From assembly GCA_913060665.1 (NCBI GenBank), contig CAJXUY010000023.1, forward strand, positions 1-62,708: DNA of 62,708 bases, written 5' to 3'. Shown piece after piece: positions 15,087 through 45,616 of the stretch. The stretch is from an uncultured Oleiphilaceae bacterium (GTDB lineage Bacteria; Pseudomonadota; Gammaproteobacteria; Pseudomonadales; Oleiphilaceae). Both the position numbers and the translations under genes were made by a program. Position 1 is the first letter of the stretch. Each line of letters opens with the position of its first letter. Below the pieces are notes generated by a model. That model saw only the letters and a list, made by a program, of their open reading frames with translations, made no database searches and was not told the DNA's origin.

Positions 15087-16001
15087 CTATGGCCGATTTA
15101 TGGTGATATCCCCATACTGTTGCCCATCTCGTCCAATAGCTAGATAAGGCAAGCCTAAAGACTCTAACCAAGCCAAACCTTGGTCACCTTTTAGCATCGC
15201 TACGGTCGTCGCGGAACCCGCAATAACGCATTGATCAGCAATAACCGTCACACTGGCAAGAGACTCAACCGGCCAACCCGTAATGGGGTTAAGTAGGTGG
15301 CTATAACGTACACCGTCAACCAGCATAAAGCGTTCGTAATCGCCACTGCTGGCCAGACCTCCTTTATGCAGTGGCACCATGGCAATGGGTTGATCAGGCT
15401 CCCGAGGCGCTCTTATGCCAACCATCCATGGTTTTCCGTCTGAGTGTGGCCCTATAATACCAATATCCCCACCCAACTCTATCAATCCATGTTTAACGCC
15501 CCGCTGCACACAAAACCCCTTCACCCTATCGCAGGCATACTCTTTCACGACCCCCCCAAAGTCGAGCTCCATACCCGCTAACGGAAACCCCAAACGGCCA
15601 TCTTTCCACGTTAACTTGTTCCAGCCAATTCGCGCGCGAATGACATCCAATTCACTCTGTAAGGGCAACTGGTCTGATTTGAAATCCCACACTTGCCTCA
15701 GCAAGCCGGAGGTAACATCAAATAGCCCTTCGCTCTCACGCCAAACCGTATCAGCGTAGTTCAATAAGCCGGCGGTTTCTTCATCAACCGCTATCTCTCC
15801 ACCCGCTAGTGCGGCACGGTTAATCTGACTAATAACACTGTCTTCACGGTAACGAGAGTACTTTGACTCTAAACGATATACCTCATCCATGGCGAATTTT
15901 GCGTGCAGAGAGGCCTCATTTTCACTATCAGCATAAAACTGAATAGAGCATGGGCCTCCCATTGCTTTAAAACGAAAATGGTATCTTGAGCGTTGTGGCA
16001 T
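15087..16001 (-). CDS. apbE: Divergent ApbE-family FAD:protein FMN transferase, no signal peptide
   Basis: Last gene of the six-gene redox operon. ApbE enzymes transfer FMN from FAD to a Thr/Ser of target proteins. Family features are visible: MGGPCSIQFYA at the start of the core, the YSRYREDSVISQINRA segment, DFGGVVKEYACDRV, the loop LIELGGDIGIIG, and the C-terminal AGSATTVAMLKG. Two oddities stand out. The core begins at residue 5-15 with no signal peptide or lipobox, and only 46 bp separate it from the upstream stop, so there is no room for one. In the C-terminal metal loop the usual A-D-A-x-x-T is A-G-S-A-T-T, so the Mg-ligand Asp appears to be Gly. It may be a cytosolic or altered-activity ApbE; the family call itself is safe. 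Confidence 0.85.
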   Translation of the reverse strand: MPQRSRYHFRFKAMGGPCSIQFYADSENEASLHAKFAMDEVYRLESKYSRYREDSVISQINRAALAGGEIAVDEETAGLLNYADTVWRESEGLFDVTSGLLRQVWDFKSDQLPLQSELDVIRARIGWNKLTWKDGRLGFPLAGMELDFGGVVKEYACDRVKGFCVQRGVKHGLIELGGDIGIIGPHSDGKPWMVGIRAPREPDQPIAMVPLHKGGLASSGDYERFMLVDGVRYSHLLNPITGWPVESLASVTVIADQCVIAGSATTVAMLKGDQGLAWLESLGLPYLAIGRDGQQYGDITINRP

Positions 16002-16047
16002 CAGCGTTCACATATCAGTCTATAAAACCAGACTCTAGGCAATTACC

Positions 16048-17253
16048 CTAGAATGAGTAATCAAAGCCTAGCGTGACCAGCGTATATTGCAACAATCCCG
16101 GGTGTTCCTTTTCTACCGAGCCTAATGCTAGGTCACCGTCTGAAACATAGCGCTCTGCACTGACAATAACTTTCCAGTTATAGCTATGAGCAACTGCAGA
16201 CAACCCAAACGTTAGCGCACCAAAAGGTGACAATCGATAATCTGACGACTTATCCCCTGGCTGGGCAGCTATATCAATAGGTGTGTAGAAGTCAGCCTGA
16301 CTCTGAGAATAGTACCTAACGGAAGGGATAACTCTCAGGTTCGGGTCAATATTTTGCTGCCATTCAAACGCCATGGTGTGAGACACTAGATCCCAGTCAT
16401 CGACATAAAGTCGATAATCAGCGTGCATGGCGGCGTCGAGATCCCCAAAGAAGTAACGGTATCGGTTATTCCACGCCACTGACGAGCGCGAATTAGGTCG
16501 CTGATCAACCAGTTTATAAGGGTCCGATAGATAACCATCACTATAAGCGTAGTTAATGCTCGTCTGGAAAACCGATCGTGCATCAATCACCTGCGCGACC
16601 CCCAGAAACGTGGTTGCAGTATATTTGCTTTCATTCGTGACGCGGTTAAAACCGGATGCTTGAGTGGGTTTTATCGTGTCATCTGAGTAACCCAGGCCAC
16701 CCATCAGAGTGGTCATTTTGTCATTGACATCAACGGTTCCTTCCAGCCCCAAATTGTAAGCTTCATAGTCATCTTCGGTTGAATAACCACCAATGACCGA
16801 TGCCGTACCACTCTCATAATAACGCGTCGTTTTAACATTTAAATCCATTCGCGTATCTTCGATACTGGCTCCACTCATCACCAGCAGTGGGTTGCCTTCG
16901 CCGTCATCAACAGTTCCATAAGGAGATGCGCCACTCATCGTCTCATAGTCAAACGTCGTATCTACCGCGTAGTTTTCGCCAACCGGCGTAAGCACTCTAA
17001 ATTGATGAACATCGATGTCATACCGTTGCTTACTGCCACTGGCCAGCTTACTTTGAGGCACATCTTCTTCTTGATAATGTGAATATCGATACCCCACTTC
17101 AGTGTTGGTGGGCGGCGCTTCTGCATGCACGCCGGTTGCAACGGCCGTCATCGCCATACCCGGTATCGCTAACGCAGCCGTTGTCAGTGCATTCAAGGCG
17201 CGGGAGTTGCCCGGTACGCCTTGCGGGCTCTTTTTAAATATCTCAGAACTCAT
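16048..17253 (-). CDS. DUF3570 outer-membrane beta-barrel protein
   Basis: Predicted outer-membrane protein of 401 residues. A long signal region (residues about 20-45, ending GVHAEA) is followed by repeated amphipathic strands with alternating aromatic residues, and the chain ends in GFDYSF, with the C-terminal Phe typical of beta-barrels recognised by the BAM machinery. Near the N-terminus of the barrel two copies of M-S-G-A-S occur (106-110 and 126-130), 20 residues apart; they resemble the SGA(T/S) core of ApbE flavinylation sites. AAAGGAA precedes the ATG. It lies directly upstream of apbE and downstream of the DUF4266 lipoprotein gene, 81 bp away. Function unknown; the family call is from memory of co-occurrence with DUF4266 and ApbE. 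Confidence 0.75.
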   Translation of the reverse strand: MSSEIFKKSPQGVPGNSRALNALTTAALAIPGMAMTAVATGVHAEAPPTNTEVGYRYSHYQEEDVPQSKLASGSKQRYDIDVHQFRVLTPVGENYAVDTTFDYETMSGASPYGTVDDGEGNPLLVMSGASIEDTRMDLNVKTTRYYESGTASVIGGYSTEDDYEAYNLGLEGTVDVNDKMTTLMGGLGYSDDTIKPTQASGFNRVTNESKYTATTFLGVAQVIDARSVFQTSINYAYSDGYLSDPYKLVDQRPNSRSSVAWNNRYRYFFGDLDAAMHADYRLYVDDWDLVSHTMAFEWQQNIDPNLRVIPSVRYYSQSQADFYTPIDIAAQPGDKSSDYRLSPFGALTFGLSAVAHSYNWKVIVSAERYVSDGDLALGSVEKEHPGLLQYTLVTLGFDYSF

Positions 17254-17334
17254 GGGTCATTCCTTTCCAATTATATTTCAGGTTTCGCGTCTACTATCGA
17301 CTAGTTAGAACTATGGGCTAGTTACAACTGCAGG

Positions 17335-17547
17335 TTAGTTGCAGCCACAACCGCCACCACCTGAACTCGCCCCACCAGAAGAACCTTCTTTACTGAAATA
17401 AATATGGTCGCGTAATGCCGACTTCATAGGGTCTGGGTCCCATGCCATTTCTATTTTGGCCAAATCACCACGCTCCCAAGGCTGAACCGTTGTACAGCCC
17501 CAAAGCGATGACAATAAAACAGGAAGCAGCAGTATTTTTTTGTTCAT
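17335..17547 (-). CDS. DUF4266 small lipoprotein with Gly-rich CGC tail
   Basis: A 70-residue predicted lipoprotein: signal peptide with lipobox LWGC (Cys18). A conserved-looking core (VQPWERGDLAKIEMAWDPDP) follows, then a flexible tail from residue 55, Ser/Gly-rich and ending GGGGCGCN (Cys67 and Cys69). The residue after Cys18 is Thr, not Asp, so outer-membrane sorting is expected. The start ATG has GGAAGGGG upstream and overlaps the thioredoxin gene stop by 4 nt (ATGA), implying translational coupling. The two tail cysteines could bind a metal or heme, form a disulfide handled by the neighbouring TlpA, or be modified; none of this is shown. Confidence 0.8.
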   Translation of the reverse strand: MNKKILLLPVLLSSLWGCTTVQPWERGDLAKIEMAWDPDPMKSALRDHIYFSKEGSSGGASSGGGGCGCN

Positions 17548-18056
17548 GATTTATCCCCTTCCTGAATCAGTGTTTTTACGACATCCCTTATCTTGTCTAT
17601 ATCGCCACTACGGAACCCTTGGTGTACCCCTCTTAGGTTTCCATTCTGGTCGATTAAATAAGAGGTTGGCATACCGGATAATTGATATTTTTGTGGTGTA
17701 CTGCCTGTGGTATCGGTTAACACCGGATAGTTAACCGGGTACTTTTGAAGAAATCGCTTTCCATCTTCAGGGTTTTCATCCAGGTTAATGGCGATCACTT
17801 CAAACTTATCTTCGCCTAGCTCATTACGTAACGTGTTCAGTAACGGGAGCGACTGACGACAAGGGCCACACCAAGACGCCCAAAAATCGAGATACACGAC
17901 TTTTCCTCGATACTGTTCCAGTGCTTTCTCCTGCCCAGAATAAATATCAGGCAGACTAAAAGCAGGAGCAGGTTCATTTACAGACTCCGCCCAGCTATTG
18001 CTAACCACAACGGTAAGCAATAACCACAGCGAAACTAACGACTTCAATTTCAGCAT
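17544..18056 (-). CDS. TlpA-family periplasmic thioredoxin
   Basis: Membrane-exported thiol:disulfide reductase of 170 residues. Signal peptide/anchor MLKLKSLVSLWLLLTVVVSN, then an AhpC/TSA-thioredoxin fold with the redox motif WCGPC at 62-66 and a cis-Pro in GMPTSYLID. LDFWASWCGPCRQSLPLLN is typical of TlpA/ResA, which keep heme-binding or metal-binding cysteines reduced in the periplasm. I chose the ATG with GGAG 6 nt upstream; a GTG 21 nt earlier is possible. In this operon its likely clients are the c-type cytochrome (CXXCH motifs) and/or the CGC tail of the overlapping downstream lipoprotein. Confidence 0.9.
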   Translation of the reverse strand: MLKLKSLVSLWLLLTVVVSNSWAESVNEPAPAFSLPDIYSGQEKALEQYRGKVVYLDFWASWCGPCRQSLPLLNTLRNELGEDKFEVIAINLDENPEDGKRFLQKYPVNYPVLTDTTGSTPQKYQLSGMPTSYLIDQNGNLRGVHQGFRSGDIDKIRDVVKTLIQEGDKS

Positions 18057-18079
18057 ACGACTCTCCAATCGGATCACGC

Positions 18080-19381
18080 TTATGTAAACAGGGGAATATC
18101 ATCAATGGCGACGGGGTATAGTTTATCGAGCGCTGTACCTGCTAGCCCCGTCACACGCCTTAGTGCTTTATGAATATGTGCTGGGGTAATTAAGATACCG
18201 TTATCATCAAACGCCAACGTAGAAGGGTTAACTTTTCGAGCACCGTATAAGTCATCTGTGCCACCAATCACTCGATCACCTGTAATGCCTGCTCCCATTA
18301 CAATCATGCTAGTGACATTCCAGTGATCTTTACCACCGGCGCCAACCAAATCACCGGAGTCTCGGGTATAACCATTATAAAAAGGCGTTCGACCAAAATC
18401 AGAACCAATCAAGATGGTGGTACGGTCTTGAATGCCCTGCCGCTCTAGTTCGGTCCATAGGTGGTTTACGCCATCTAACAGGCTATCAAGACTGCTGGTT
18501 TGACTGTTGTCATGATTACCATGAGTGTCAAAGCCTCCCACATTAAGGTTTGCAGATACAGAAAGCCCAGCAGCAAACGCGGCTGCTGCCATTTCTGCCT
18601 GACCTTTCAAACCACTGGAAATTGGGCTGGGCAACTTCTGAACAATTTGATCAAGGCTGTCTGTACCCGATCGAGCAGACAGTAACTCATTCAATTTCTT
18701 ACGCCTTTTGCCCAACACCTCTGTCGAACTCTGGCGGCTTAAGCTGGCTATTTGAGCTTTCTCAATAAGGTCATACACACCGTCCTCATGATAGCGATCA
18801 GTGTTTCCTGGACTTGGTTCATTAGGGAACGCCAACTCACTAAAGTTACCGCTGCCCGAAACTCGTGAAGCACTCACAATGGAGTCAGTGAAGTCATAAC
18901 CACCATTACTAATATAAGACATGGCCTTATTAGGTGCTGCAGAGGCTGCAATCATTGCGGCAAGACTGGGATTCCCCATATCACTCTTACCACTCCAGAC
19001 AAACCGGCTACCTACCGAGTGGCTGTTAGTACCGGTGTCGATGCCGTTAATAACCTGCATTCGGCCCGAGTGACGAGTAAAAAACTCCGCCAATGTATCA
19101 TCTACCGGTGCCGTTATTGTGTCGGCATAAGGCGCATAATTAATATTACCTGCAGATCGTATAGCGGCTGTAGCAAAGTTGTTAACCGGCCCTCTCCCAT
19201 CACTACGCAGTGCATTCCCCTTTGGGTCACACAGGCTAGTTGGGTCCCACCCTCCACTCGCATTCACCATGACCCAAAAGCGATTAGGGTCTGCTGCGGC
19301 ACTCAATGGCGTGCTCACGATCGGCAAACTCAAACTCATCCCAGTTGCCGCCAGTGCTTTCAAAAAATATCTACGGTTCAT
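18080..19381 (-). CDS. DUF1501 family exported protein
   Basis: A 433-residue exported protein. N-terminus MNRRYFLKALAATGMSLSLP resembles a Tat/Sec signal (RRYFLK), processed near LSAAA. The rest fits DUF1501, an alkaline-phosphatase/sulfatase-like fold without assigned enzyme activity: VNASGGWDPTSLCDP near the start, NVGGFDTHGNHD in the middle and TILIGSDFGRTPFYN with GGKDHWNVTSMIVMGAGI near the end. DUF1501 genes are regularly paired with cytochrome-type DUF1592/DUF1549 genes in other phyla, as here (26 bp downstream of one). AAGGAG precedes the ATG. Role unknown. Confidence 0.85.
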   Translation of the reverse strand: MNRRYFLKALAATGMSLSLPIVSTPLSAAADPNRFWVMVNASGGWDPTSLCDPKGNALRSDGRGPVNNFATAAIRSAGNINYAPYADTITAPVDDTLAEFFTRHSGRMQVINGIDTGTNSHSVGSRFVWSGKSDMGNPSLAAMIAASAAPNKAMSYISNGGYDFTDSIVSASRVSGSGNFSELAFPNEPSPGNTDRYHEDGVYDLIEKAQIASLSRQSSTEVLGKRRKKLNELLSARSGTDSLDQIVQKLPSPISSGLKGQAEMAAAAFAAGLSVSANLNVGGFDTHGNHDNSQTSSLDSLLDGVNHLWTELERQGIQDRTTILIGSDFGRTPFYNGYTRDSGDLVGAGGKDHWNVTSMIVMGAGITGDRVIGGTDDLYGARKVNPSTLAFDDNGILITPAHIHKALRRVTGLAGTALDKLYPVAIDDIPLFT

Positions 19382-19407
19382 AATTCATTTCTCCTTTGAC
19401 AGACGGC

Positions 19408-21723
19408 TTATTCATACAGGAATCGGTAATCGGCAAACATGTAAGTTAATACGCCCGTCCATGACCGGATCACATAATTTTCGTCCAGTCTGATTTGCTC
19501 TTCAGAAGGAAAGCTTTCACCTGTTTCAGGGTGATATCGTAATCTGCAACGCCAATCTAGATAAGTGCTCACTTCGCCCTCCTCTAGAAGGCTTTGTCCT
19601 TGGGTCCAGATATTGGAAAACAGATCATAAGTACGGGAAACCTGAGCAGAACCTTCATCTACACGCTCCCCAAAAAAGACCCAGTGTAAATGCACAATAT
19701 TCTGCTTTATAGCACTGATAGCCGCATCATTTACTATACCGTCAGCATCAAGTGGAGCCATATCCATCGCAACAAACGGGAATAAGTTCCTTTGCGCTCT
19801 CGGATAAAACAAGTCTTTTGTCGCTACATCGCAGGCCACCTGCGTTGCCATAAGTCTCTGGGTTGATGACATCAAACCATTAGGTTGAGTAATTCGAGTG
19901 GTTACTGAGTCTGAGTCAATACCACCATAAATCTGATTATAGTCTCCACCCTCTTTACTCAAATTAGAGGTACTTGAATTCTCCATCCAACGGAAACCGG
20001 TAACCGCCTCAATTTTTCGGTCAAGCATTTCAGGGGTCAAGAGGCGAGCACTACCTACAATATCAGCACTATGTCCCGTTGCTGCAGAAGCTCGATAGTA
20101 AGGACTCAGTAATATACCTTTGATCGCCACTTTCAAATTATAATTTGAATCGGTGAAGTCTTTTTCAATAGTACCAAAGTGAAACCGTTGCGCCGCATAA
20201 GCTGACTTTTCGTCATCAGAAGCGCTCTCTGAAGGTATTGGTAGTGGGCTATCTCCAGTTAGTCCGGTATATAGTATCTTAACCATTGCTTTAACAAACC
20301 GAGGGTCTTTCGCAATAGCTTTGCCTAACCATTGCAAAGACTTATCCACATTACCTGATAACGGCATCACCTCTCCGTTGAAACCACGAGGTTGGATATC
20401 GCTTGGCCAGCCATCAGACGATAAACGACTGGGGCGATATCGGCCCCGGTCATCCCAGTTCTGGAATGATGCAGCCACTGGATCCATCACATCATGACAC
20501 CCAGTACAGCCAGGGTTATCCAGCGTAGGGGTCGTACTCACCAAGTCAATCGCTTCGTCAGGTCTATTACCTTGAATAGCTAATATATCAGTATCTAAAA
20601 ATATCTCGAAAACCTTGCGAGAGCGGTGACGATTTAGATTAGTATCGGTCGTTGGAAAACGATTCAAAAACATCGCTGACGTTAGTAGGCCCGCATGAGG
20701 AATACCCGGTATACGTATTTCTCTGAAATCATTAGGGTCTTCTGGATAACTAGCATCCAAAGGCGCGTCTAATGCATCAAAAGCAACCTGCCCTTGAACA
20801 CCATATGCTTGAGCAGAGTACCGGTTCGCCAGCGTATAATCTGCGGTCAGAATTTCAGTAAAGGGTCGGTTATTCTTAACCACATGTACAATTAATCGAT
20901 GTGCCTCTTGCGATACTGCATCATTGGTACTGTTTCGTAGCCAATAATATAGGTCTCGCTCTGGCCCTGCCATTGATGTATCGAGCCCAAGGTCTCTATG
21001 CCAACGTCGCTCAGGATAATCTCCACTATCTAACAGGTTGACGGCATCTTCATTCGGCAAATATTTATCCTGATGAAGCACATCATTAAATATCTCCATC
21101 AACCGATCATAAAACGCATCAGTAGCCATATACGTATCAATCGCTTGCGATAAACCTGTTTCCCCCGAACTTTCGGCCTGAGAAAGCTGAGCATCAGTTG
21201 GGAGTTCCCCAGTTAAGCTTAATGACGTGCGATAGAGCGATTTGCTGACATCTTCGAGCTCAACTCCTTCAAGCGAACACGCAGAAGACGCCACACTTTG
21301 AGCGTTAAACCCGCTATTAAACGCTGCAATGATGTATTCTGCTGTTTTTTCGGAGCAATCCAAGCCGCAACTTTCAACACCACCAATCGGCATAGTAGTG
21401 GCAATACGGTTGGTCAGCGTGTCGATATCGCCGCAGGTCGCACAACCAATCAGCGATGTCCCACTTGCGGTACCATAGCCTGCACTACCGTGGCACGATG
21501 AACATTGCTGTCCGTAAAGCTGTTGCCCCTCAACAGAAAACGCCCCTTGAACCGATGCGGTTGAGAGTGTTGCACAGGCTAAGCCTGACGAAGATTGCTC
21601 TTCGCCGCTATACTCTCCACAGCCCGCTAAAAAAACACTCACGGCAATCGTTTTTATCAGCCGTGGCCACTGGCACAGCGTTTTAATGATGGTACTAGGT
21701 ATCTTACTCGCTATACCCTTCAT
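19408..21723 (-). CDS. c-type cytochrome lipoprotein with DUF1592/DUF1588-like domains
   Basis: First gene of the operon. Predicted 771-residue lipoprotein: basic N-terminus, hydrophobic helix and lipobox LAGC (Cys35). A cytochrome c module follows with heme motif CSSCH (74-78) and a candidate distal ligand Met111 in TTMPIGG. Extra cysteines (CATC and CGLDC) may form disulfides or an additional site. The large C-terminal region follows the planctomycete/myxobacterial DUF1592-DUF1588 plan, including TADYTLANRYSA, PHAGLLTSAMFLNRFP and a second CXXCH (CTGCHDVMDP, 406-410). The start ATG has GAGGAGAGG just upstream; the GTG five codons earlier is less likely. A possible -10 box (TATAAT) lies about 40 bp upstream of the ATG. 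Electron partner and substrate unknown. Confidence 0.8.
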   Translation of the reverse strand: MKGIASKIPSTIIKTLCQWPRLIKTIAVSVFLAGCGEYSGEEQSSSGLACATLSTASVQGAFSVEGQQLYGQQCSSCHGSAGYGTASGTSLIGCATCGDIDTLTNRIATTMPIGGVESCGLDCSEKTAEYIIAAFNSGFNAQSVASSACSLEGVELEDVSKSLYRTSLSLTGELPTDAQLSQAESSGETGLSQAIDTYMATDAFYDRLMEIFNDVLHQDKYLPNEDAVNLLDSGDYPERRWHRDLGLDTSMAGPERDLYYWLRNSTNDAVSQEAHRLIVHVVKNNRPFTEILTADYTLANRYSAQAYGVQGQVAFDALDAPLDASYPEDPNDFREIRIPGIPHAGLLTSAMFLNRFPTTDTNLNRHRSRKVFEIFLDTDILAIQGNRPDEAIDLVSTTPTLDNPGCTGCHDVMDPVAASFQNWDDRGRYRPSRLSSDGWPSDIQPRGFNGEVMPLSGNVDKSLQWLGKAIAKDPRFVKAMVKILYTGLTGDSPLPIPSESASDDEKSAYAAQRFHFGTIEKDFTDSNYNLKVAIKGILLSPYYRASAATGHSADIVGSARLLTPEMLDRKIEAVTGFRWMENSSTSNLSKEGGDYNQIYGGIDSDSVTTRITQPNGLMSSTQRLMATQVACDVATKDLFYPRAQRNLFPFVAMDMAPLDADGIVNDAAISAIKQNIVHLHWVFFGERVDEGSAQVSRTYDLFSNIWTQGQSLLEEGEVSTYLDWRCRLRYHPETGESFPSEEQIRLDENYVIRSWTGVLTYMFADYRFLYE

Positions 21724-22145
21724 TGATCCTCTCCTCACCTTGGTTATCCATTTCGGTGCAAATTATATGTGATCGCTTTTTATATTTTGAAATGTCTCTT
21801 TTTTGCGACTTATCATTTTTCAGCCTTTTACGGCTATCTGGTGAGCATATTTATCGTAAAAGAGGTGGCAAAGAACCCAGTAGGCACTCATTTTGTTAGC
21901 TATCGCACAAAAAGCACCATCTAGGTCAAGGGAAATGAAGGGTGGTTCTCAGAAAAGGAGATTACGAAAGACTATAGCTGTGTAATAATTACTTACATTT
22001 CATATCATTAGCACACACATGCCCTGCACTAATTAACAGATAACCGGTAGAGATTACACATCAAGCTACTCTGGATGAATGGTTTTCGATCGAAAAAATG
22101 ACGTTTATTATTAATGGTGATGGTTCGGCTAAGGGTCGCCCCCAT
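21724..22145. other. Upstream region of the redox operon
   Basis: 422 bp without a gene, downstream of cobC and upstream of the cytochrome gene (both minus strand). It contains a perfect 14-bp palindrome TTTTCGATCGAAAA at 22083-22096 and a possible minus-strand promoter at 21762-21791. Nothing else is recognised. Confidence 0.5.
21762..21791 (-). promoter_or_regulatory. Possible sigma-70 promoter of the redox operon
   Basis: Read on the minus strand: -10 TATAAT and a weak -35 TTCAAA with 18-bp spacing. The -10 ends 39 bp before the cytochrome-gene ATG. Confidence 0.35.
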
Positions 22146-37215: not shown

Positions 37216-38679
37216 ATGAGTATCAATTGGAACCATTACGACCCGAACGATTTTTTTGATGAGTTGATGGGCCCCCATGGCCAAGCCCGACCACCAGCCA
37301 AAAGGCTGGCAGATCACCTGACATCACTCGAAGAGAACGAACTGGAGGCTTGCCGCCAGATGGCCGAGGCTACGATTCATGAGATGGGGGTTAGCTTTAC
37401 TGTTTATACAGAGGAAGGCAACATCGACCGTGCATGGCCGTTTGATATTATTCCTCGCACCATTTCTGCATCACAATGGGACATCGCAGCAGCAGGGCTC
37501 AAACAAAGATTAAAAGCGCTCAATCTTTTTATTGGGGATCTTTATGATCAACAGCAGATCATCAAAGATGGCATCATCCCGGAGCATATCATCAAGAATT
37601 CCAAAAACTTTCGCCCTGAATGTATCGGCGTAAAGCCGGCTCACGGAGTATGGGCACACATTTGTGGAACAGACTTGGTACGAGATGCCGACGGTGAGTT
37701 TTATGTGCTTGAAGATAACCTTCGAGTACCATCGGGTGTCGCCTACATGCTCGAAAATAGAGCCATTACTAAACGAGTACTACCTGAGCTATTTCAAAAA
37801 GAAGATATTAAACCTGTCGATGACTACCCGGCACGGCTATTCGACACACTGGTATCATTATCACCTCGCGCCATTAAGCGCCCTGAAATTGTGGTATTAA
37901 CACCAGGGATATTCAATTCAGCTTACTTTGAGCATGCTTACCTTGCCCAACAAATGGGAATTGAGCTGGTTGAAGGCAGCGACCTATTTGTCGATGACGA
38001 TGACTGTGTCTATATGCGCACCATTTCGGGCTTAGAGCGTATTGATGTTATTTATCGACGCATAGATGACCTGTTTCTAGACCCTGAAATATTCGAAAAA
38101 GATTCCGTATTGGGGGTGCCAGGCCTCATGCGTGCTTGGCAAGCAGGAAACGTAGCACTTGCCAATGCACCGGGCGCGGGCGTGGCTGACGACAAGGTCG
38201 TATATGCCTATGTGCCCGATATTATTCGCTACTATCTTGACGAAGAACCACTCATCAAAAACGTTAAAACCTATCTATGCGATGACCCTGAACAGCGCAA
38301 GTATGTCATTGATCATATCAGCGAGCTCGTAGTGAAGCCCGCCAACGAGTCGGGAGGCTATGGCATGTTAATTGGGCCTCACTCAACCAAAAAAGAACAA
38401 GCGCATTTCATCAAACTGATCAACGCCGACCCTCGCAATTATATTGCCCAACCCACGCTAGCACTTTCAACCGCGCCAACACTGGTTGGCAAAGGCCAAA
38501 TTGAACCCCGCCACCTCGACCTTCGTCCGTTCATACTGCAAGGAAAAGATAGTTATGTGACAACCGGAGGATTAACACGAGTCGCAATGACGAAAGGATC
38601 ATTAGTTGTCAACTCATCTCAAGGCGGAGGTAGTAAAGATACCTGGATTGTGAATGGGGAGAAGAAAGATGTTATCTAA
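37216..38679 (+). CDS. Circularly permuted ATP-grasp type 2 protein
   Basis: A 487-residue protein of the circularly permuted ATP-grasp group, predicted to form peptide-like amide bonds with ATP. Recognised stretches are NPSGV-like LEDNLRVPSGVAYMLENR, VVLTPGIFNSAYFEHAYLAQQMGIELVEGSDL, VIYRRIDDLFLDPE and VVKPANESGGYGMLIGP, with the C-terminal RPFILQGKDSYVTTGGLTRVA. It is the first of a tight plus-strand cluster with alpha-E and transglutaminase genes, an association known in many proteobacteria and proposed to act in synthesis and cleavage of an unknown peptide. No signal peptide. Its stop overlaps the next start by 11 nt. Confidence 0.9.
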   Translation: MSINWNHYDPNDFFDELMGPHGQARPPAKRLADHLTSLEENELEACRQMAEATIHEMGVSFTVYTEEGNIDRAWPFDIIPRTISASQWDIAAAGLKQRLKALNLFIGDLYDQQQIIKDGIIPEHIIKNSKNFRPECIGVKPAHGVWAHICGTDLVRDADGEFYVLEDNLRVPSGVAYMLENRAITKRVLPELFQKEDIKPVDDYPARLFDTLVSLSPRAIKRPEIVVLTPGIFNSAYFEHAYLAQQMGIELVEGSDLFVDDDDCVYMRTISGLERIDVIYRRIDDLFLDPEIFEKDSVLGVPGLMRAWQAGNVALANAPGAGVADDKVVYAYVPDIIRYYLDEEPLIKNVKTYLCDDPEQRKYVIDHISELVVKPANESGGYGMLIGPHSTKKEQAHFIKLINADPRNYIAQPTLALSTAPTLVGKGQIEPRHLDLRPFILQGKDSYVTTGGLTRVAMTKGSLVVNSSQGGGSKDTWIVNGEKKDVI

Positions 38680-39613
38680 AGTAGCCGAAAGGCTTTATTG
38701 GACTGCGCGGTATTTAGAGCGAGTAGAGAATACGGCACGATTAGTAAGCGTATACGACAGCCTGCTATTTGATCTGCCCCATGATCTAGACATTAGCTGG
38801 TACAACCTAGTCACTCTTAACAGTCTCGAGTCACTTTTTGAAGAGCGCTACCGTAACCGAGATGAAAGAAATGTCGTTAAGTTTCTACTAGCCGATGATA
38901 CCAACCCATCATCCATGCTATCCGCGTTAAAAATGGTTCGTGAGAACGTACGTACAACACGAGACATGCTACCGCTGGAATGTTGGGAGATGGTTAACGA
39001 GTTCTATATTTTTGCAGCCAACCATATTAACCAAGGCATTAACCGGCGTGAGCGCCATGAGTTTCTCAATCAAATAGTTAAATGTTGCCAGCAGGTTAAT
39101 GGGCTAATAAAAGGCACGATGAGCCGAGATGCGGCTTGGCAGTTTATGCGTTTAGGGCGAAACCTGGAACGAGCGGATATGGTGACACGACTACTCGATG
39201 CGGGTGCCGCTGCACAAATTCAAGGTGAAGCTGAAACCCAAATGCGAATAAGCCAAGTAGTCTGGGGAAATGTCTTACGCTCAAGTTCTGCTGAACTGAA
39301 TTATCGCCGTGCAATGCGCAGCGCCGTGCGAGAAATCGATGTCGCCTTTTTTTTACTGAAAGACCCCTATTTTCCACGGGGTTTGAATTTTTGCCTATCC
39401 CAAATGTTAAGTGCAGTAGCCGCCCTTCCCAATAGTGGCAACGCCAAAAAATCACTTGATGAGGCCCTAGCCTTTGAGTTCGATTTAGATGATAGCAAGC
39501 GGCTGGGCGGAGAGTTTCGCGAATATCTAAACCAGCAACAACTTTACTTAATTGAGTTACACCAAGGTTTTAATGAAACCTGGTTTTCAGCCGTTCAGAG
39601 AGGCGCAGAATGA
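38669..39613 (+). CDS. Alpha-E domain protein
   Basis: All-helical 314-residue alpha-E protein, partner of the ATP-grasp enzyme. The start MLSKVAERLYWTARYLERVENTARL is the family hallmark; DAAWQFMRLGRNLERADMVTRLLD repeats the same E-R-A/E-N pattern. I chose the second ATG, which has GGGGAG 7 nt upstream, over one 15 nt earlier. It overlaps the ATP-grasp gene and the following transglutaminase gene (4 nt), so these three are translationally coupled. Biochemical role unknown. Confidence 0.9.
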   Translation: MLSKVAERLYWTARYLERVENTARLVSVYDSLLFDLPHDLDISWYNLVTLNSLESLFEERYRNRDERNVVKFLLADDTNPSSMLSALKMVRENVRTTRDMLPLECWEMVNEFYIFAANHINQGINRRERHEFLNQIVKCCQQVNGLIKGTMSRDAAWQFMRLGRNLERADMVTRLLDAGAAAQIQGEAETQMRISQVVWGNVLRSSSAELNYRRAMRSAVREIDVAFFLLKDPYFPRGLNFCLSQMLSAVAALPNSGNAKKSLDEALAFEFDLDDSKRLGGEFREYLNQQQLYLIELHQGFNETWFSAVQRGAE

Positions 39614-42600
39614 CCATACGCACAGCTATTCACCATGTAACAGAATACAAATTTGATCGCGCGGTATCATTGTCGCCCCATGTTATTCGGTTACGCCCCG
39701 CGGCTCACTGTCGAACACCTATTCAGGGTTACTCACTTAAGATAAGCCCTGAAAACCACTTTATTAACTGGCAACAAGATCCTTTTGGTAACTTCCTCGC
39801 TAGACTGGTCTTCCCCGAAAAAACACGGCACCTGAAAGTTGAAGTCGAAGTGATCGCCGATATGACGGTCATTAATCCATTTGATTTTTTTGTTGAAGAA
39901 TCAGCAGAGAGTTTTCCGTTCAAGTATGACGATGAACTTAAACAAGAGCTAAAACCCTATCTCGAAATAGTCGATGACGGCCCTTTAGTTCGTCAATGGG
40001 CGGAGTCGATATCCAAAGAGCCAATGCCGATTAACGACTTTTTAGTCGCTATTAATCAGCGTCTCGAGAGTGAAATTGGTTACAACATTCGCATGGAACC
40101 CGGCGTTCAAGATAGCGACGAGACGCTCACCATCAAAAAAGGCTCTTGCCGTGATAGCAGCTGGTTGTTAGTGCAAATTTTCCGCCACTTAGGTTTGGCA
40201 GCACGTTTTACCTCTGGCTACCTAGTCCAGCTGACCTCAGATGTTAAGTCCCTCGACGGGCCCTCTGGACCAGAAAAAGATTTTACAGACCTACATGCCT
40301 GGTGTGAGGTTTATATTCCAGGCGCTGGTTGGGTCGGCATGGATCCCACCTCCGGATTGTTTGCCAGCGAGGGCCATATCCCTTTGGCCTGCACACCTTC
40401 ACCGAGCTCTGCAGCCCCTATCAGTGGCGGTATGGACAAATGTGAAGTGGCATTTGATTACAGCAATGAAGTGGTTCGAGTGCTAGAGGACCCTAGGGTC
40501 ACAAAGCCTTATAGTGATGAGCAATGGCAGTGCATTGATGCGCTTGGAAAAGCCGTTGATAAAAAACTCAAAGATTATGATGTGCGACTCACTCAAGGCG
40601 GCGAGCCCACGTTTGTCTCTATTGATGACATGGACTCAGACCAGTGGAATACCGGCGCACTTGGAGATGACAAGCTAAGCCTTTCTAAAGACCTGCTGCT
40701 TCGCATGCGTGACCAGTTTGCGCCTGACGGGTTCTTGCATTATGGTCAAGGCAAGTGGTACCCCGGCGAAGAATTACCCCGCTGGGCATTAGGTTGTTTC
40801 TGGCGCCATGACGGTCAACCCTTGTGGCGCAACAAAGAATTTCTCGCCCGCATAGATAAAGACTATGGTGTCACAACAGAAATAGCAGAGGACTTCGCCC
40901 GTAAGCTCACCCAACGAGCCGGGTTAAGGGATAGCTATCTAGTGCCAGCGTATGAAGACGTGATGTACCATTTATGGCGTGAACAGTCGTTACCCGACAA
41001 CGTTGACCCCTTAAAATTTGACCTCAAAGATGACCTTGAACGCAAGAAATTAGCAAAAGTGCTATCTCAAGGCCTCGGAGACCCGGTTGGTTACTGCCTC
41101 CCCCTTGGCTGGAATTATTCAACTAATCATTGGCGTTCAAGCCCATGGCCGTTGCGGAGCAAAACGCTTGCGTTGATTCCGGGAGACTCACCAATGGGCT
41201 TCCGTCTGCCATTGGACTCATTACCTCATGTAGCAGAAGACGAACAAGATAACCCGCAACCCCGCGACCCGTTTGATCATGTTGACGCTTTAGCTGATTC
41301 AGGTGAAAGTGCGAAACAGGCTCGTTGCGACAGTGATGAAACCACTAAGCCTACCGTGAGTGTTGACGTCATTCGCACCACACTCTGTATAGAGCCGAGA
41401 GAAGGTCGACTCTATCTCTTTATGCCACCTTTAGAGCTACTGGAACATTATGTAGCGCTGATCGAACTGATTGAGGATACGGCAGCAGAGATGCAGGTCC
41501 CTGTCGTTATTGAAGGGTATGAACCACCAAAAGATTCAAGGATGAATTGCTTTAAAGTAACACCTGACCCTGGCGTTATCGAAGTTAATATCCATCCGGC
41601 TGAAAACTGGAATGAACTGGTCAGTAATACCGAAACTATTTATGAAGAGGCACGACTGGCCCGTCTATGTGCTGAGAAATTCATGTTGGACGGCCGACAT
41701 ACAGGAACAGGTGGAGGTAATCACATTACTCTCGGAGCGGCTAATCCTATTGATAGCCCGTTTCTTCGTCGCCCAGACATGCTAAGAAGCCTGGTAACTT
41801 ATTGGCAACACCACCCGGGACTCTCTTACCTATTTTCAGGCATGTTTATTGGCCCAACCAGCCAATCTCCACGTGTCGATGAAGGCCGCGATGAAATGCT
41901 CTATGAGCTAGAAGTCGCCTTTTCTCAAATCCCCGAAGGAGAAGTCCCCGAACCATGGTTAGTCGATCGTCTATTGCGAAACCTACTGGTTGATATCACC
42001 GGTAATACCCATCGCTCAGAATTTTGTATCGATAAGCTATATGCACCAGGCTCCGCCTCAGGCCGACAAGGTTTATTAGAGTTTCGTGGTTTCGAAATGC
42101 CTCCTCATGCACGCATGTCGTTAGTACAAGCGTTGTTAATTCGGAGTCTAATGGTACGTTTCTGGAAAGAACCTTATCACAAGCCTTTAGTTCGCTGGGG
42201 TACAGAACTTCATGATAGGTTCATGTTACCACACTATGTTTGGGAAGACCTTCGAGAAGTGGTCAATGATTTACAAAAGAGCGGTTTGCCATTTCAACTC
42301 GAGTGGCTAGCACCCTTTGAAGAATTTCGTTTTCCACACTACGGGCGCGCTCAAATAGATGACGTAAGTGTTGAGTTACGCTGGGCCATTGAGCCTTGGC
42401 ATGTACTCGGTGAAGAAGTGAGCAGCTTTGGCACATCACGCTATGTCGATTCTTCAATGGAGCGCCTTCAGGTAAAAGTCGATGGTTTAACCCCTGGGCG
42501 TTATGTTTTAGCCTGTAATGGTCGCCGTATTCCCCTGCGCTCCACCGGGCGTCATGGAGAGTATGTTGCAGGAGTTCGATATAGAGCTTGGCACCCACCA

Positions 42601-42945
42601 ACGGCGCTTCACCCTACGATCGGCGTTCATTCACCTCTGGTATTTGATCTTTTTGATACTTGGAACGGCCAGTCGATTGGGGGCTGCACCTATCACGTGG
42701 TTCACCCAGGCGGTCGAAGTTATGAAACGCTACCCGTCAACGCATTTGAGGCCGAGTCACGCCGAATAAACCGATTCTGGGAGCTTGGTCATACGCCTAC
42801 CAGTCATGAGCCGCAGCCAGAATTCGATGATATATGGGAGTTCTTTGTTAATGATCAGCCACCACGAGCGATGGAACCACCAAAAGAGGTACCCTCTAGT
42901 GAATTCCCTCATACACTCGACTTAAGACGACAGATAGAGAAATAG
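39610..42945 (+). CDS. Transglutaminase-like/DUF2126 protein
   Basis: A 1111-residue cytosolic protein. N-terminal bacterial transglutaminase-N domain (about 1-90) and transglutaminase-like core with the papain-like triad: Cys in KKGSCRDSSWLLV (about 179), His in DLHAWCEVYIPGAGW (about 228) and Asp in VGMDPTSG. From about 300 onward it is DUF2126, with VRLTQGGEPTFVSIDDMDS, WYPGEELPRWALGCFWRHDGQPLW, RHTGTGGGNHITLG and FRGFEMPPHARMSL. DUF2126 looks like a glutamine-synthetase/ATP-grasp-like ligase module, but its activity is unproven. The length is usual for this family. Confidence 0.9.
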   Translation: MTIRTAIHHVTEYKFDRAVSLSPHVIRLRPAAHCRTPIQGYSLKISPENHFINWQQDPFGNFLARLVFPEKTRHLKVEVEVIADMTVINPFDFFVEESAESFPFKYDDELKQELKPYLEIVDDGPLVRQWAESISKEPMPINDFLVAINQRLESEIGYNIRMEPGVQDSDETLTIKKGSCRDSSWLLVQIFRHLGLAARFTSGYLVQLTSDVKSLDGPSGPEKDFTDLHAWCEVYIPGAGWVGMDPTSGLFASEGHIPLACTPSPSSAAPISGGMDKCEVAFDYSNEVVRVLEDPRVTKPYSDEQWQCIDALGKAVDKKLKDYDVRLTQGGEPTFVSIDDMDSDQWNTGALGDDKLSLSKDLLLRMRDQFAPDGFLHYGQGKWYPGEELPRWALGCFWRHDGQPLWRNKEFLARIDKDYGVTTEIAEDFARKLTQRAGLRDSYLVPAYEDVMYHLWREQSLPDNVDPLKFDLKDDLERKKLAKVLSQGLGDPVGYCLPLGWNYSTNHWRSSPWPLRSKTLALIPGDSPMGFRLPLDSLPHVAEDEQDNPQPRDPFDHVDALADSGESAKQARCDSDETTKPTVSVDVIRTTLCIEPREGRLYLFMPPLELLEHYVALIELIEDTAAEMQVPVVIEGYEPPKDSRMNCFKVTPDPGVIEVNIHPAENWNELVSNTETIYEEARLARLCAEKFMLDGRHTGTGGGNHITLGAANPIDSPFLRRPDMLRSLVTYWQHHPGLSYLFSGMFIGPTSQSPRVDEGRDEMLYELEVAFSQIPEGEVPEPWLVDRLLRNLLVDITGNTHRSEFCIDKLYAPGSASGRQGLLEFRGFEMPPHARMSLVQALLIRSLMVRFWKEPYHKPLVRWGTELHDRFMLPHYVWEDLREVVNDLQKSGLPFQLEWLAPFEEFRFPHYGRAQIDDVSVELRWAIEPWHVLGEEVSSFGTSRYVDSSMERLQVKVDGLTPGRYVLACNGRRIPLRSTGRHGEYVAGVRYRAWHPPTALHPTIGVHSPLVFDLFDTWNGQSIGGCTYHVVHPGGRSYETLPVNAFEAESRRINRFWELGHTPTSHEPQPEFDDIWEFFVNDQPPRAMEPPKEVPSSEFPHTLDLRRQIEK

Positions 42946-43030
42946 AGAAATAAACCAATAATGTACCAAACAAAACGTAAAAGGCCATGTATAATCAGCA
43001 GCCAAAATGTCGACTTGGAGCGTTTGATTA

Positions 43031-45616
43031 ATGGATAACCCTGCTGTGAACATGCCTGATGCGTTTGATTACCCGCGATCAGATCAAGGCTATGATGAGG
43101 TCTATGGGCATCAGGCGCAGATGCGTGAGCACTGGCAACATCTATTAAATGGCTTGAATACCCTCGGTACCGAGGGTATTCAAGAGCGGCACCTCAAAGC
43201 TGAGAGAATTCTTAGAGATGACGGTGCCACCTACAAAAGTGGTTCGTCACGCCAGCCCAAAACCTGGCAACTTGATCCAATTCCAGTTCTATTGGAAAGC
43301 GAGGAGTGGGGATCAATTGAGTCTGGGTTATTGGAGCGAGCAGAACTATTAGATCTTGTACTCAAAGACCTTTATGGCGAGCGAGAGCTGATTCGGCACG
43401 GTGTCATTCCTCCGGAATTGGTCTATAGCCATGCTGGTTTTTTGCGTGCCTGCCAAGGTTTAGTATTACCGGGTGAACACCAGCTTGTACTGCATGCTTC
43501 AGATATGGTGCGCGATGCAAAAGGCACTATGCATGTAATAGGCGACAGAGCGCAGGCACCTAGCGGTTCAGGTTATGCCTTAGAAAACCGCACGGTAATG
43601 TCACGTATCATGCCGTCAATATTTCGCGACAGCCATGTTCATAGGTTATCGCTATTTTTTCAAACACTACGATCAAAACTCAATAATCTCGCTAGTCATA
43701 TTACAGCCGACCAGCCTCGAGTAGTCATCCTCACACCTGGAATCTATAACGAAACTTATTTTGAGCACGCATATCTGGCGAATTATTTAGGCTACCCCTT
43801 GGTACAAGGCAGCGACCTTCAAGTCAGCAATGGCTATTTGTGGATGAAATCACTAGGAGAGCTGACCCGAGTTGATGTGGTTCTCCGTCGTATAGATGAC
43901 TTTTATGCAGACCCTGTTGAGTTAAAAAGCGACTCTAGTTTAGGTGTGCCTGGGTTATTAGAAGTCGTGCGCACCGGCAAAGTCATTATCGCGAATCCTC
44001 TAGGATCAGGCTTACTTGAGAACCCTGCCTTACTCCGATATATGCCGCAAATAAGCCAGCATTTTCTCGGGCGCGAATCTCGCCTGGCCTCGGTAAAAAC
44101 CTATTGGTGTGGTGACCCTTCAGACCTCGCCTATGTACTGAGCAATCTAGACAATTTGGTCATCAAACCCAGTTTTAGAAAACCGGGTATACAAAGCCTG
44201 TTTGGCTCACAACTCGACAACAATCAACGTAAAGTGCTAACAGAAAAGCTAAAGCAATCACCACGAAATTATGTTGCACAAGAGTATATTAAGCCCTCTA
44301 CCACTCCTTCGTGGAAAAACGGACTACTGATGCCCCGCCCTACCGTATTACGGGGTTTTTCAGTCGCAGGAGAGTCTTCATACAGAGTAATGCCTGGGGG
44401 GCTAACCCGTGTAGGTAATGAAGCGGGGAGCCTTAACCTTACCAATCAGCAAGGCGCGGTTAGTAAGGACACATGGATAATTGCCTCCGAACCTGAGAAG
44501 CATACACCTCAGGACCCTGTTCAGTCTCAATCTCAGACCATCCCCCCCACTCAGCCATGGACGCCTCCTGTTGTAGAACAACCCCACGCAACCTTTCCTT
44601 GCAGAGTGGTCGAAAACCTCTTCTGGATGGGCCGTTATGCCGAGCGTGCGGAGTCGGCATTGCGCCTATTAAGAACGATCTTTGTTCAGTTCAATAGCAC
44701 TTATCAAATGCCTGAACAAACGCGACAACTACTACTAAAGACCGTTACTGAAGTGACTACAACCTATCCCGGTTTTGTGGTGGCTGATGCAGGACTTAAT
44801 AATCAAACTGAAACAGAGCTACTGGCCGTCATTCTGGATGCAGAACGCAACGGCAGTGTAAGCAACAACATCAATGCCCTGCTTAAATCTTCAGATCAGG
44901 TGAGAGAGTTATTATCATCTGACACCTTACGTGTACTCAACGACCTGCAAGACGAATTAGAAGGTTTATCTAACGTCTTACAATCAGGTCTTAGTGCCGC
45001 ACCCGAAGAAGCATTAGACCCATTAGTCACCACCCTATTAGCACTCGCCGGACTCTGCCAGGAAAGCATGATACGAGGCTTAGGCTGGCGCTTTATGGAT
45101 ATGGGGCGACGCGTTGAAAAGGCGTTCCAAGCAGTAAGCTTACTGCGCTCATCACTCGTTCAAGTATTACCTGAAGGAGAGCAACTACGGGTGCTGGAGG
45201 CTGTTTTATTGAGCTCCGAGACACTATTTACATTCCGTCGTCGCTATCACTCCGACACCGACATTGCCCGCGGTATAGAGTTATTACTGAATGATAGTAG
45301 CAACCCTCGCTCAGTCTTCTACCAAGTCGAACTGTTACGAGAACACTTGGCCGAATTACCTTCACATACCCACGGTTCAGGGCTGTCACCTGAAGACCGT
45401 TTTCTACTTGAAGCCTCCTCATCGATACAGCTTATTAACGTCAATGAACTCGTCACTACCGATGAAAATACCGGTACCCGAGTAGGTTTAGATCAAATGC
45501 TTGCTCGCTTGCAATACCTATTGCAAGAAACGTCTACACATATTGGCAGCAAGTATTTTGATCAAGTAAAAGTTCATCAACAGCTAGTACGAACTGATTG
45601 GGATGAAGAGTTATGA
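43031..45616 (+). CDS. ATP-grasp/alpha-E fusion protein
   Basis: An 861-residue natural fusion of the two proteins encoded separately upstream. Residues about 1-480 are the circularly permuted ATP-grasp part (VLHASDMVRDAKG, APSGSGYALENR, VILTPGIYNETYFEHAYLANYLGYPLVQGSDL, GGLTRVGNEAGSL). A Pro/Gln-rich linker (about 495-520) follows. The alpha-E part starts at FPCRVVENLFWMGRYAERAESALRLL. The fusion shows the two activities work on one substrate. GGAG 10 nt upstream of the ATG. A 32-bp perfect palindrome lies in its 5' coding part. Overlaps the next gene by 4 nt. Confidence 0.9.
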   Translation: MDNPAVNMPDAFDYPRSDQGYDEVYGHQAQMREHWQHLLNGLNTLGTEGIQERHLKAERILRDDGATYKSGSSRQPKTWQLDPIPVLLESEEWGSIESGLLERAELLDLVLKDLYGERELIRHGVIPPELVYSHAGFLRACQGLVLPGEHQLVLHASDMVRDAKGTMHVIGDRAQAPSGSGYALENRTVMSRIMPSIFRDSHVHRLSLFFQTLRSKLNNLASHITADQPRVVILTPGIYNETYFEHAYLANYLGYPLVQGSDLQVSNGYLWMKSLGELTRVDVVLRRIDDFYADPVELKSDSSLGVPGLLEVVRTGKVIIANPLGSGLLENPALLRYMPQISQHFLGRESRLASVKTYWCGDPSDLAYVLSNLDNLVIKPSFRKPGIQSLFGSQLDNNQRKVLTEKLKQSPRNYVAQEYIKPSTTPSWKNGLLMPRPTVLRGFSVAGESSYRVMPGGLTRVGNEAGSLNLTNQQGAVSKDTWIIASEPEKHTPQDPVQSQSQTIPPTQPWTPPVVEQPHATFPCRVVENLFWMGRYAERAESALRLLRTIFVQFNSTYQMPEQTRQLLLKTVTEVTTTYPGFVVADAGLNNQTETELLAVILDAERNGSVSNNINALLKSSDQVRELLSSDTLRVLNDLQDELEGLSNVLQSGLSAAPEEALDPLVTTLLALAGLCQESMIRGLGWRFMDMGRRVEKAFQAVSLLRSSLVQVLPEGEQLRVLEAVLLSSETLFTFRRRYHSDTDIARGIELLLNDSSNPRSVFYQVELLREHLAELPSHTHGSGLSPEDRFLLEASSSIQLINVNELVTTDENTGTRVGLDQMLARLQYLLQETSTHIGSKYFDQVKVHQQLVRTDWDEEL
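43153..43184. repeat. 32-bp perfect palindrome inside a coding region
   Basis: The half-site CTTGAATACCCTCGGT is followed directly by its exact reverse complement, with no spacer. It encodes LNTLGTEGIQE, near residue 45 of the fusion protein. Confidence 0.9.

Follow-up and report, generated by a model that had tools for sequence, protein, structure and literature searches.

In a 62,708-nucleotide stretch of DNA from an uncultured Oleiphilaceae bacterium (GenBank assembly GCA_913060665.1, contig CAJXUY010000023.1), which is called the window here, six minus-strand genes spanning positions 15087 to 21723 may together specify an electron line that crosses the outer membrane and serves a pair of surface enzymes. 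We infer the locations of the proteins, the direction of electron flow and the enzymatic role of the pair, and put this reading at a probability of about 45%. Four of the genes form a flavin core that has been described before, and what looks new is its joining to exchangeable surface enzymes. If the reading is true, bacteria would possess a general thiol-to-flavin-to-heme line across the outer membrane to which various surface enzymes can be coupled, relatives of polymer-attacking oxygenases among them.

Each of the six open reading frames (ORFs) has a Pfam match above cut-off, and an initial annotation of this DNA was right that they share one strand and lie close together or overlap. In the order of transcription they are P6, DUF1501, TlpA, DUF4266, DUF3570 and ApbE, with gaps of 26, 2, -4 (an overlap), 81 and 46 bp; the gap before TlpA would be 23 bp rather than 2 if translation starts at the ATG at 18056, which is preceded by GGAG and is the likelier start. 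The heme motifs, thiol reductase, cysteine-tailed lipoprotein and flavin transferase named in that annotation are likewise all present, as set out below (all coordinates are on the minus strand).

P6 (19408 to 21723) is a 771-amino acid lipoprotein with the lipobox LAGC, in which an X183-type heme domain is followed by DUF1592/DUF1588 (PSD4/PSCyt3). The Pfam scores are 34.3 bits for PSCyt3/DUF1588 (cut-off 27) and 31.0 bits for PSD4/DUF1592 (cut-off 23.3), the latter covering the C-terminal half of the model only, and the same scan found no RoxA-like domain. P6 is the only heme gene found in the operon and has two CxxCH motifs, CSSCH at residues 74 to 78 (21490 to 21504) and CTGCH at residues 406 to 410 (20494 to 20508), the cysteines and histidine of the second being invariant in 32 aligned relatives. 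In a sequence search its first heme domain matched the solved chain 8q1v (E 4.1e-15). The adjoining DUF1501 protein (18080 to 19381; Pfam 84.3 bits, cut-off 27) has a Tat-like N-terminus with the motif RRYFL, and residues D46, D285, H287, D328 and H353 are invariant in 10 aligned relatives; no credible solved relative was found by sequence, the search returning one 28-residue chain at E 0.14.

The remaining four genes make up the flavin core. TlpA (17544 to 18077) is a TlpA/ResA-like thiol oxidoreductase (Pfam Redoxin 89.4 bits, cut-off 26.6) with the motif CGPC at 17859 to 17870. DUF4266 (17335 to 17547; 82.8 bits, cut-off 27) is a small lipoprotein with a lipobox and a glycine-rich tail that ends in the CxC sequence CGCN, the CGC lying at 17341 to 17349. 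DUF3570 (16048 to 17253; 216.6 bits, cut-off 25) keeps two SGAS motifs, at residues 107 to 110 (16924 to 16935) and 127 to 130 (16864 to 16875), of the type described as flavin sites in the accessible text of Meheust et al. (2021; PMC8238504). It is probably an outer-membrane beta-barrel, as judged from sequence statistics: the last residue is F, W or Y in 98 of 131 DUF3570 proteins vs 176 of 1506 control ORFs, and beta-alternation, scored at three thresholds with a positive control, gives z values of 3.8 to 4.5 vs -1.2 to 0.5 in DUF1501, P6 and ApbE. A search for a solved relative of DUF3570 by sequence gave none at E up to 5. The last gene, ApbE (15087 to 16001; 244.7 bits, cut-off 25.6), encodes a flavin transferase of a signal-less Gly/Glu/Cys subfamily.

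The gene set, which the initial annotation had proposed to look for in other genomes, was sought in 194 genomes of the order, in a scan of named genomes (at least 56 loci) and in 20 regions from other orders, mostly with scores like those of the window; locus totals that draw on the named-genome scan are counts among the matches listed. Loci and genomes are given L and G numbers. Same-contig duplicates in two collections (L183, L184, L186, L188, L209, L206, L240 and L097) were removed before counting, and the neighbourhoods compared do not take in five places of the order survey (G045:C146, G045:C109, G021:C10, G119:C67 and G062:C346). The set does recur. P6-DUF1501 lies in one gene run with DUF3570 in at least 19 distinct gammaproteobacterial loci, the window included, with such runs in a Hahellaceae metagenome-assembled genome (MAG), a Methylococcales MAG, Thalassolituus, Oceanobacter, Bacterioplanes, Reinekea and Saccharospirillum, and in L244 from another order of the class. 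All six families are found in eight of these loci (L000, L178, L179, L180, L181, L182, L066 and L244): the Hahellaceae locus L178 has a 76% identical P6 and all six genes in window order, L179 has a split P6 and an ApbE cut by the contig end, and in L244 ApbE comes first, 294 bp away. Three of the at least 19 loci have ApbE outside the run, and in four a DsbD-like gene after ApbE stands in place of TlpA (one confirmed by Pfam). Across these loci 86 of 88 gaps are of 100 bp or less, with a median of 8. Since the order is kept, we rejected a chance neighbourhood; a crude binomial value of 9e-19 ignores relatedness and is not to be taken at face value. The set is also present in the cultured strains Thalassolituus maritimus DSM 24913, Bacterioplanes sanyensis KCTC 32220 and Reinekea forsetii G2M07, so that the system can be tested.

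Of the 194 genomes surveyed in the order, 71 have DUF3570 and 71 have DUF4266, and the genomes listed for the two are the same. P6-like and DUF1501-like genes stand side by side 10 times beside DUF3570, nine times apart from it and twice at contig ends. Among six sister genomes (genus g2 of the family) none had DUF3570, and G190, of the same family, has a DUF3570 locus of class A (defined below). Genome G104 holds two partial sets: in L064 (G104:C1) a run of P6, DUF1501, DUF3570 and ApbE is without TlpA and DUF4266, and in L065 a run of P6, DUF1501, TlpA, DUF4266 and DUF3570 has no adjoining ApbE, so parts are perhaps shared between them. In the Methylococcales MAG the split P6 (L179:1738-4050) takes the form of two adjoining ORFs; the gene may be broken or naturally in two parts, or the assembly may be at fault.

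The P6-DUF1501 pair also exists away from the core. Counted as P6 were matches to our hidden Markov model (HMM) of at least 600 amino acids and more than 150 bits; this profile is broad and also matches the PSD2-like genes of about 410 amino acids in class A. The counts leave out L079, L118 and L150, which are not DUF1501-partnered, the split or short P6 genes of L179, L080, L198 and L206, L193, and the weak loci L217-L233. DUF1501 lies directly 3' of P6 in 46 of 48 counted loci, the remaining two ending at contig ends; this comprises all 16 loci in which the pair is followed by the flavin core (16/48) and 30 of the 32 free loci, which include Planctomycetota, Verrucomicrobiota and Myxococcota. 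The initial annotation had said that independent occurrence of the genes elsewhere, with known unrelated roles, would speak against a joint function: P6, DUF1501 and the other parts do occur apart, and no known role was found for the separate copies. Two MAG records titled Klebsiella pneumoniae (L189 and L191) have P6-DUF1501 pairs that group with those of Pseudomonadales and gammaproteobacterial MAGs, and their labels look wrong.

The initial annotation knew of no described function for this exact set, but four of the six genes match a published one. Meheust et al. (2021; PMC8238504) report, in the accessible part of the paper, 316 clusters that have no DsbD and combine ApbE with DUF3570, DUF4266 and a thioredoxin-like protein, 227 DsbD clusters with DUF3570, and flavinylation of a Chlorobium DUF3570 at two [S/T]GA[S/T] sites. 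The window operon resembles these clusters in the four genes, the two SGAS sites and the C-terminal CxC tail, and differs from them in having no DsbD, in the added P6 and DUF1501 and in its signal-less ApbE. The main text of that paper, as available, proposes no outer-membrane barrel and does not contain the word 'barrel'. No other paper on DUF3570 or DUF4266 was found in the open-licence literature, and the joining of the flavin core to P6-DUF1501 was not found in open-licence main texts, although supplementary tables may list some such neighbourhoods.

For the surface pair, the nearest published systems are of three kinds. According to the accessible text of He et al. (2017; PMC5615132), PSCyt3 genes in Verrucomicrobia usually adjoin a family of unknown genes, which that text does not name as DUF1501, and their context connects PSCyt genes with the use of carbohydrates and with carbohydrate-binding modules. 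P6, with DUF1588 and DUF1592 above cut-off and DUF1501 26 bp away, is of this PSCyt3/PSD type. DUF1800-DUF1501 pairs, which adjoin bacterial chitin synthases in what is accessible of PMC5122149, share the Tat signal on DUF1501 with the window; unlike both of these, the window has the flavin core next after the pair. In sequence, the X183-type domain of P6 resembles the X183 domains of Teredinibacter TERTU_2913 and Cellvibrio Cbp2D, treated in the paper that contains 8Q1V (PMC10916295, accessible text), where midpoints of +11, +119 and +124 mV are given for three X183 domains from Teredinibacter. Those proteins have other architectures, whereas P6 combines the X183 domain with DUF1592/DUF1588, and its operon includes the proposed flavin barrel.

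The partners of DUF3570 change from locus to locus. Using profiles built here and Pfam scans of representatives, we classed 116 DUF3570 rows by the genes within seven positions. P6-DUF1501 makes up class B (18 rows). The largest group, class A (44 rows), encodes a protein with an HZS_alpha domain together with small ones that have outer-membrane-barrel domains; in most of its loci there are also a cytochrome lipoprotein and a divergent PSD2-like gene, which scored below cut-off in the one case scanned. Class C (six rows; four genes scanned by Pfam) has RoxA-like cytochromes, of the rubber oxygenase type; these lie directly upstream of TlpA in L085-L087, the very place of P6-DUF1501, which they replace, on both sides of the core in L082, and four to six genes downstream of it in L081 and L083. 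The single class D row (L084) has Cu2_monoox_C plus heme domains, class E (two rows) PSD4/PSCyt3 with DUF1552, class F (13 rows) a DsbD-like gene recognised by profile and length rather than by Pfam, class G (four rows, of which L093 also has DUF1800-DUF1501) a DUF1501-like gene (26.4 bits against a cut-off of 27 in the one scanned) together with an unknown lipoprotein, and class H (five rows) an RTX protein (one scanned); the other 23 rows fall outside these classes. In regions from other orders, RoxA-profile genes lie beside DUF3570 in L242 (confirmed by Pfam) and L245, two multiheme cytochromes in L243 (described below) and a two-heme gene in L252; others of these 20 regions have no heme gene near. 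These partner changes are observed, and they suggest that P6-DUF1501 is one of several exchangeable terminal modules of the flavin core.

In the first DUF3570 tree the clade of the window holds 34 rows (18 of class B, six of C, two of E, one of D and seven others); a second tree has 37 rows, chosen after the first, namely 33 of these (L152 left out) and four outer rows. In this tree class B needs three changes and class C two, and neither forms one clade in any of 200 bootstrap trees (0%). Single origins of the P6 and RoxA linkages are weakly rejected by a further test, given below. The P6 tree (L211 left out) also needs three linkage changes. A heme gene directly upstream of the core was considered as a general rule and rejected: it is found for eight of 134 DUF3570 genes, with 91 having no CxxCH there, 31 a strand change or gap and four a contig end, and the usual gene in this place is DUF1501 or one for a small outer-membrane protein. 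Genes of at least 250 amino acids with CxxCH are more frequent close to DUF3570 than farther off, both in loci outside A and B (12 of 209 within five genes vs three of 172 beyond) and in other orders (seven of 76 vs one of 50).

Some of these loci have features of their own. In the class A examples L089, L122, L125-L128, L131-L133 and L173 the HZS_alpha protein is secreted, is about 920 amino acids long and occurs with TlpA, DUF4266 and DUF3570; many class A DUF3570 proteins have one or no SGAS site. The class H loci (L096, L124, L129, L136 and L141) encode an RTX protein of about 650 amino acids, with a DsbD-like gene in four of the five and an ApbE that has Asn where others have Cys. A gene for 516 to 557 amino acids without a Pfam match (one scanned) lies between DUF4266 and DUF3570 in L249, L250, L251 and L255. 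Beside DUF4266-DUF3570-ApbE at L243:3004-7943 lie two multiheme cytochromes, divergently oriented and with 24 and 19 CxxCH motifs, which suggests extracellular electron transfer there.

The ApbE proteins of these neighbourhoods fall into two types. Among 69 aligned, 51, the window protein included, have Gly at a position where the other 18 have Asp; all 51 also have Glu after the conserved Lys (KE), where the 18 have Gly (KG), and mostly Cys after the AM motif. The Asp, which is present in the aligned solved chains 1vrm, 6nxi and 5mgy, belongs to the aDalsT motif and is presumably a metal ligand. All 18 Asp-type proteins have a hydrophobic N-terminal stretch (best 12-residue mean at least 2.02), whereas 49 of the 51 Gly-type proteins have no signal-like N-terminus (at most 1.44, or too short to hold one), the two others, L116 and L117, having long and perhaps over-extended starts; in classes B to E no aligned ApbE has such a stretch. 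The window protein has 13 residues before its AM motif, a hydropathy maximum of -1.69 and no signal or lipoprotein sequence, and it keeps the SGDYxR motif and the following His motif (SSGDYERF and YSHLLNPITG). A signal-less ApbE that serves an exported protein implies attachment before export or some other way out of the cell, and the Gly-type subfamily is a candidate for flavin attachment before export. ApbE proteins that stay in the cytosol have been described in Klebsiella and trypanosomatids (PMC12052999, accessible text), and no paper on flavin attachment before export by a signal-less ApbE was found in the open-licence literature.

We propose that the line would work as follows. TlpA and DsbD supply thiol electrons, normally with reductant from the cytoplasm. 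DsbD lies outside the operon, with three DsbD_TM matches in this genome, and a DsbD-type protein encoded there would reduce TlpA, which would pass reductant to the CxC tail of the DUF4266 lipoprotein; this dithiol would then hand an electron pair to the covalent flavin that the DUF3570 barrel would bear at its two SGAS sites. From the flavin, electrons would move one at a time, first to the X183-type heme and next to the second heme of P6; there P6, together with DUF1501, may act on an external, probably polymeric, substrate. Having no signal peptide, ApbE would probably attach flavin to the SGAS sites in the cytoplasm, ahead of export. A dithiol transfers electrons in pairs and a heme singly, so a flavin placed between them would be a natural converter, and with the usual thiol and flavin potentials the X183 midpoints make the direction from thiol and flavin to heme downhill. 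The least certain step is the substrate: external polymers are suggested, by analogy, because of the PSCyt proteins with carbohydrate-binding modules, the DUF1800-DUF1501 pairs at chitin synthases and the RoxA-like partners.

A bolder version, which we regard as speculative and unlikely to hold in full, is a conduit without a heme carrier. DUF4266, in the inner leaflet, would reach into the DUF3570 barrel with its glycine-rich CGCN arm as a swinging dithiol, meeting two flavins 20 residues apart in one loop that signal-less ApbE had attached in the cytoplasm before export; the whole would act as a two-to-one electron transformer for any plugged-in surface enzyme, whether P6-DUF1501, RoxA-like, of the copper type or other. 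Conduits of the MtrCAB type consist of a barrel, a periplasmic partner and a surface lipoprotein cytochrome, and are like the proposed line in idea only: the window operon would work with flavin and thiols and has neither a multiheme carrier nor a surface decaheme cytochrome.

Electrons might instead run inward: P6 and DUF1501 would act outside the cell as a dehydrogenase or oxidase, for instance on polysaccharides, while the barrel, DUF4266 and TlpA would take up the electrons or sense redox state. We consider this unlikely, although nothing in the gene set fixes the direction, the context of the PSCyt genes ties them to carbohydrate use (PMC5615132, accessible text) and the X183 midpoints are positive (PMC10916295, accessible text), which would suit an electron acceptor; a step from a heme at +11 to +124 mV to a thiol would be uphill, and some of the operons carry their own DsbD-like gene, which fits the normal supply of reductant from the cytoplasm. 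An altogether different division of labour would have TlpA help in cytochrome maturation in the manner of ResA/CcmG, reducing the cysteines at which P6 binds heme, and would leave the flavin barrel a separate function in the same operon. TlpA does match ResA (solved ResA chains, and an NCBIfam score of 106.2 bits that falls short of the cut-off, 170), and P6 has two c-type heme motifs to be served. This is nevertheless very doubtful, since 96 of 116 DUF3570 genes vs two of 32 free P6 genes have a TlpA-like or DsbD-like gene no more than five genes away, and 40 of 53 DUF3570 genes without a CxxCH neighbour still have a thiol carrier, so that the carrier tracks the flavin core and not P6 maturation.

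The enzyme served could also be DUF1501 rather than the cytochrome, as a Tat-exported metalloenzyme of the alkaline-phosphatase type, which we take to be the type of its clan, kept reduced or loaded by the redox proteins. It follows P6 in 46 of 46 counted loci not cut by a contig end, both class B and class G have DUF1501-like partners, joined by DUF1800 in L093, and the Asp/His set is conserved; yet the RoxA-like loci L081-L083 and L085-L087 and the copper-monooxygenase-like L084 have no DUF1501 match, and by sequence no solved relative was found, which makes this improbable to us. The initial annotation had offered electron or metal handling as alternatives. Electron transfer remains the best reading of the conserved gene set, and metal uptake was rejected, as nothing for metal handling, and no metal transporter, was found among ten scanned window genes and two neighbours (the window has 47 ORFs of at least 150 amino acids).

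Several results weigh against the electron line serving a surface pair as proposed. In the accessible text of PMC10916295 the Teredinibacter X183 domains gave a lytic polysaccharide monooxygenase (LPMO) no electrons and were rapidly oxidised by O2. The axial methionine M111 of the X183 domain, invariant in nine aligned P6 proteins, is conserved in less than 90% of 32. In four of the at least 19 loci no TlpA or DsbD-like gene is near, one of them also being without DUF4266, and in classes F, G and H no CxxCH gene of at least 250 amino acids was found within five genes (0/77), so that a heme partner is not general. In the barrel statistics the small-barrel positive control reached a z of only 1.1 to 1.7, below DUF3570 itself. 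The approximately unbiased (AU) test rejects single clades only modestly (p 0.029 for B, 0.030 for C), and the starred branches of the P6 tree force only one change, so that on the P6 side the joining may have happened once.

Upstream of P6 there is a weak sigma-70-like promoter candidate at 21762 to 21791 on the minus strand, with 10 of 12 positions matching; 19 such sites were found in the region vs 14.1 expected (standard deviation 3.9), which is near the chance number. The flanking genes, for a glutathione S-transferase (GST)-like protein downstream and a histidine phosphatase upstream, have no annotated link to the operon. Elsewhere in the window, at 37216 to 45616, genes for two circularly permuted ATP-grasp proteins, a DUF2126 and transglutaminase protein and an Alpha-E domain are clustered.

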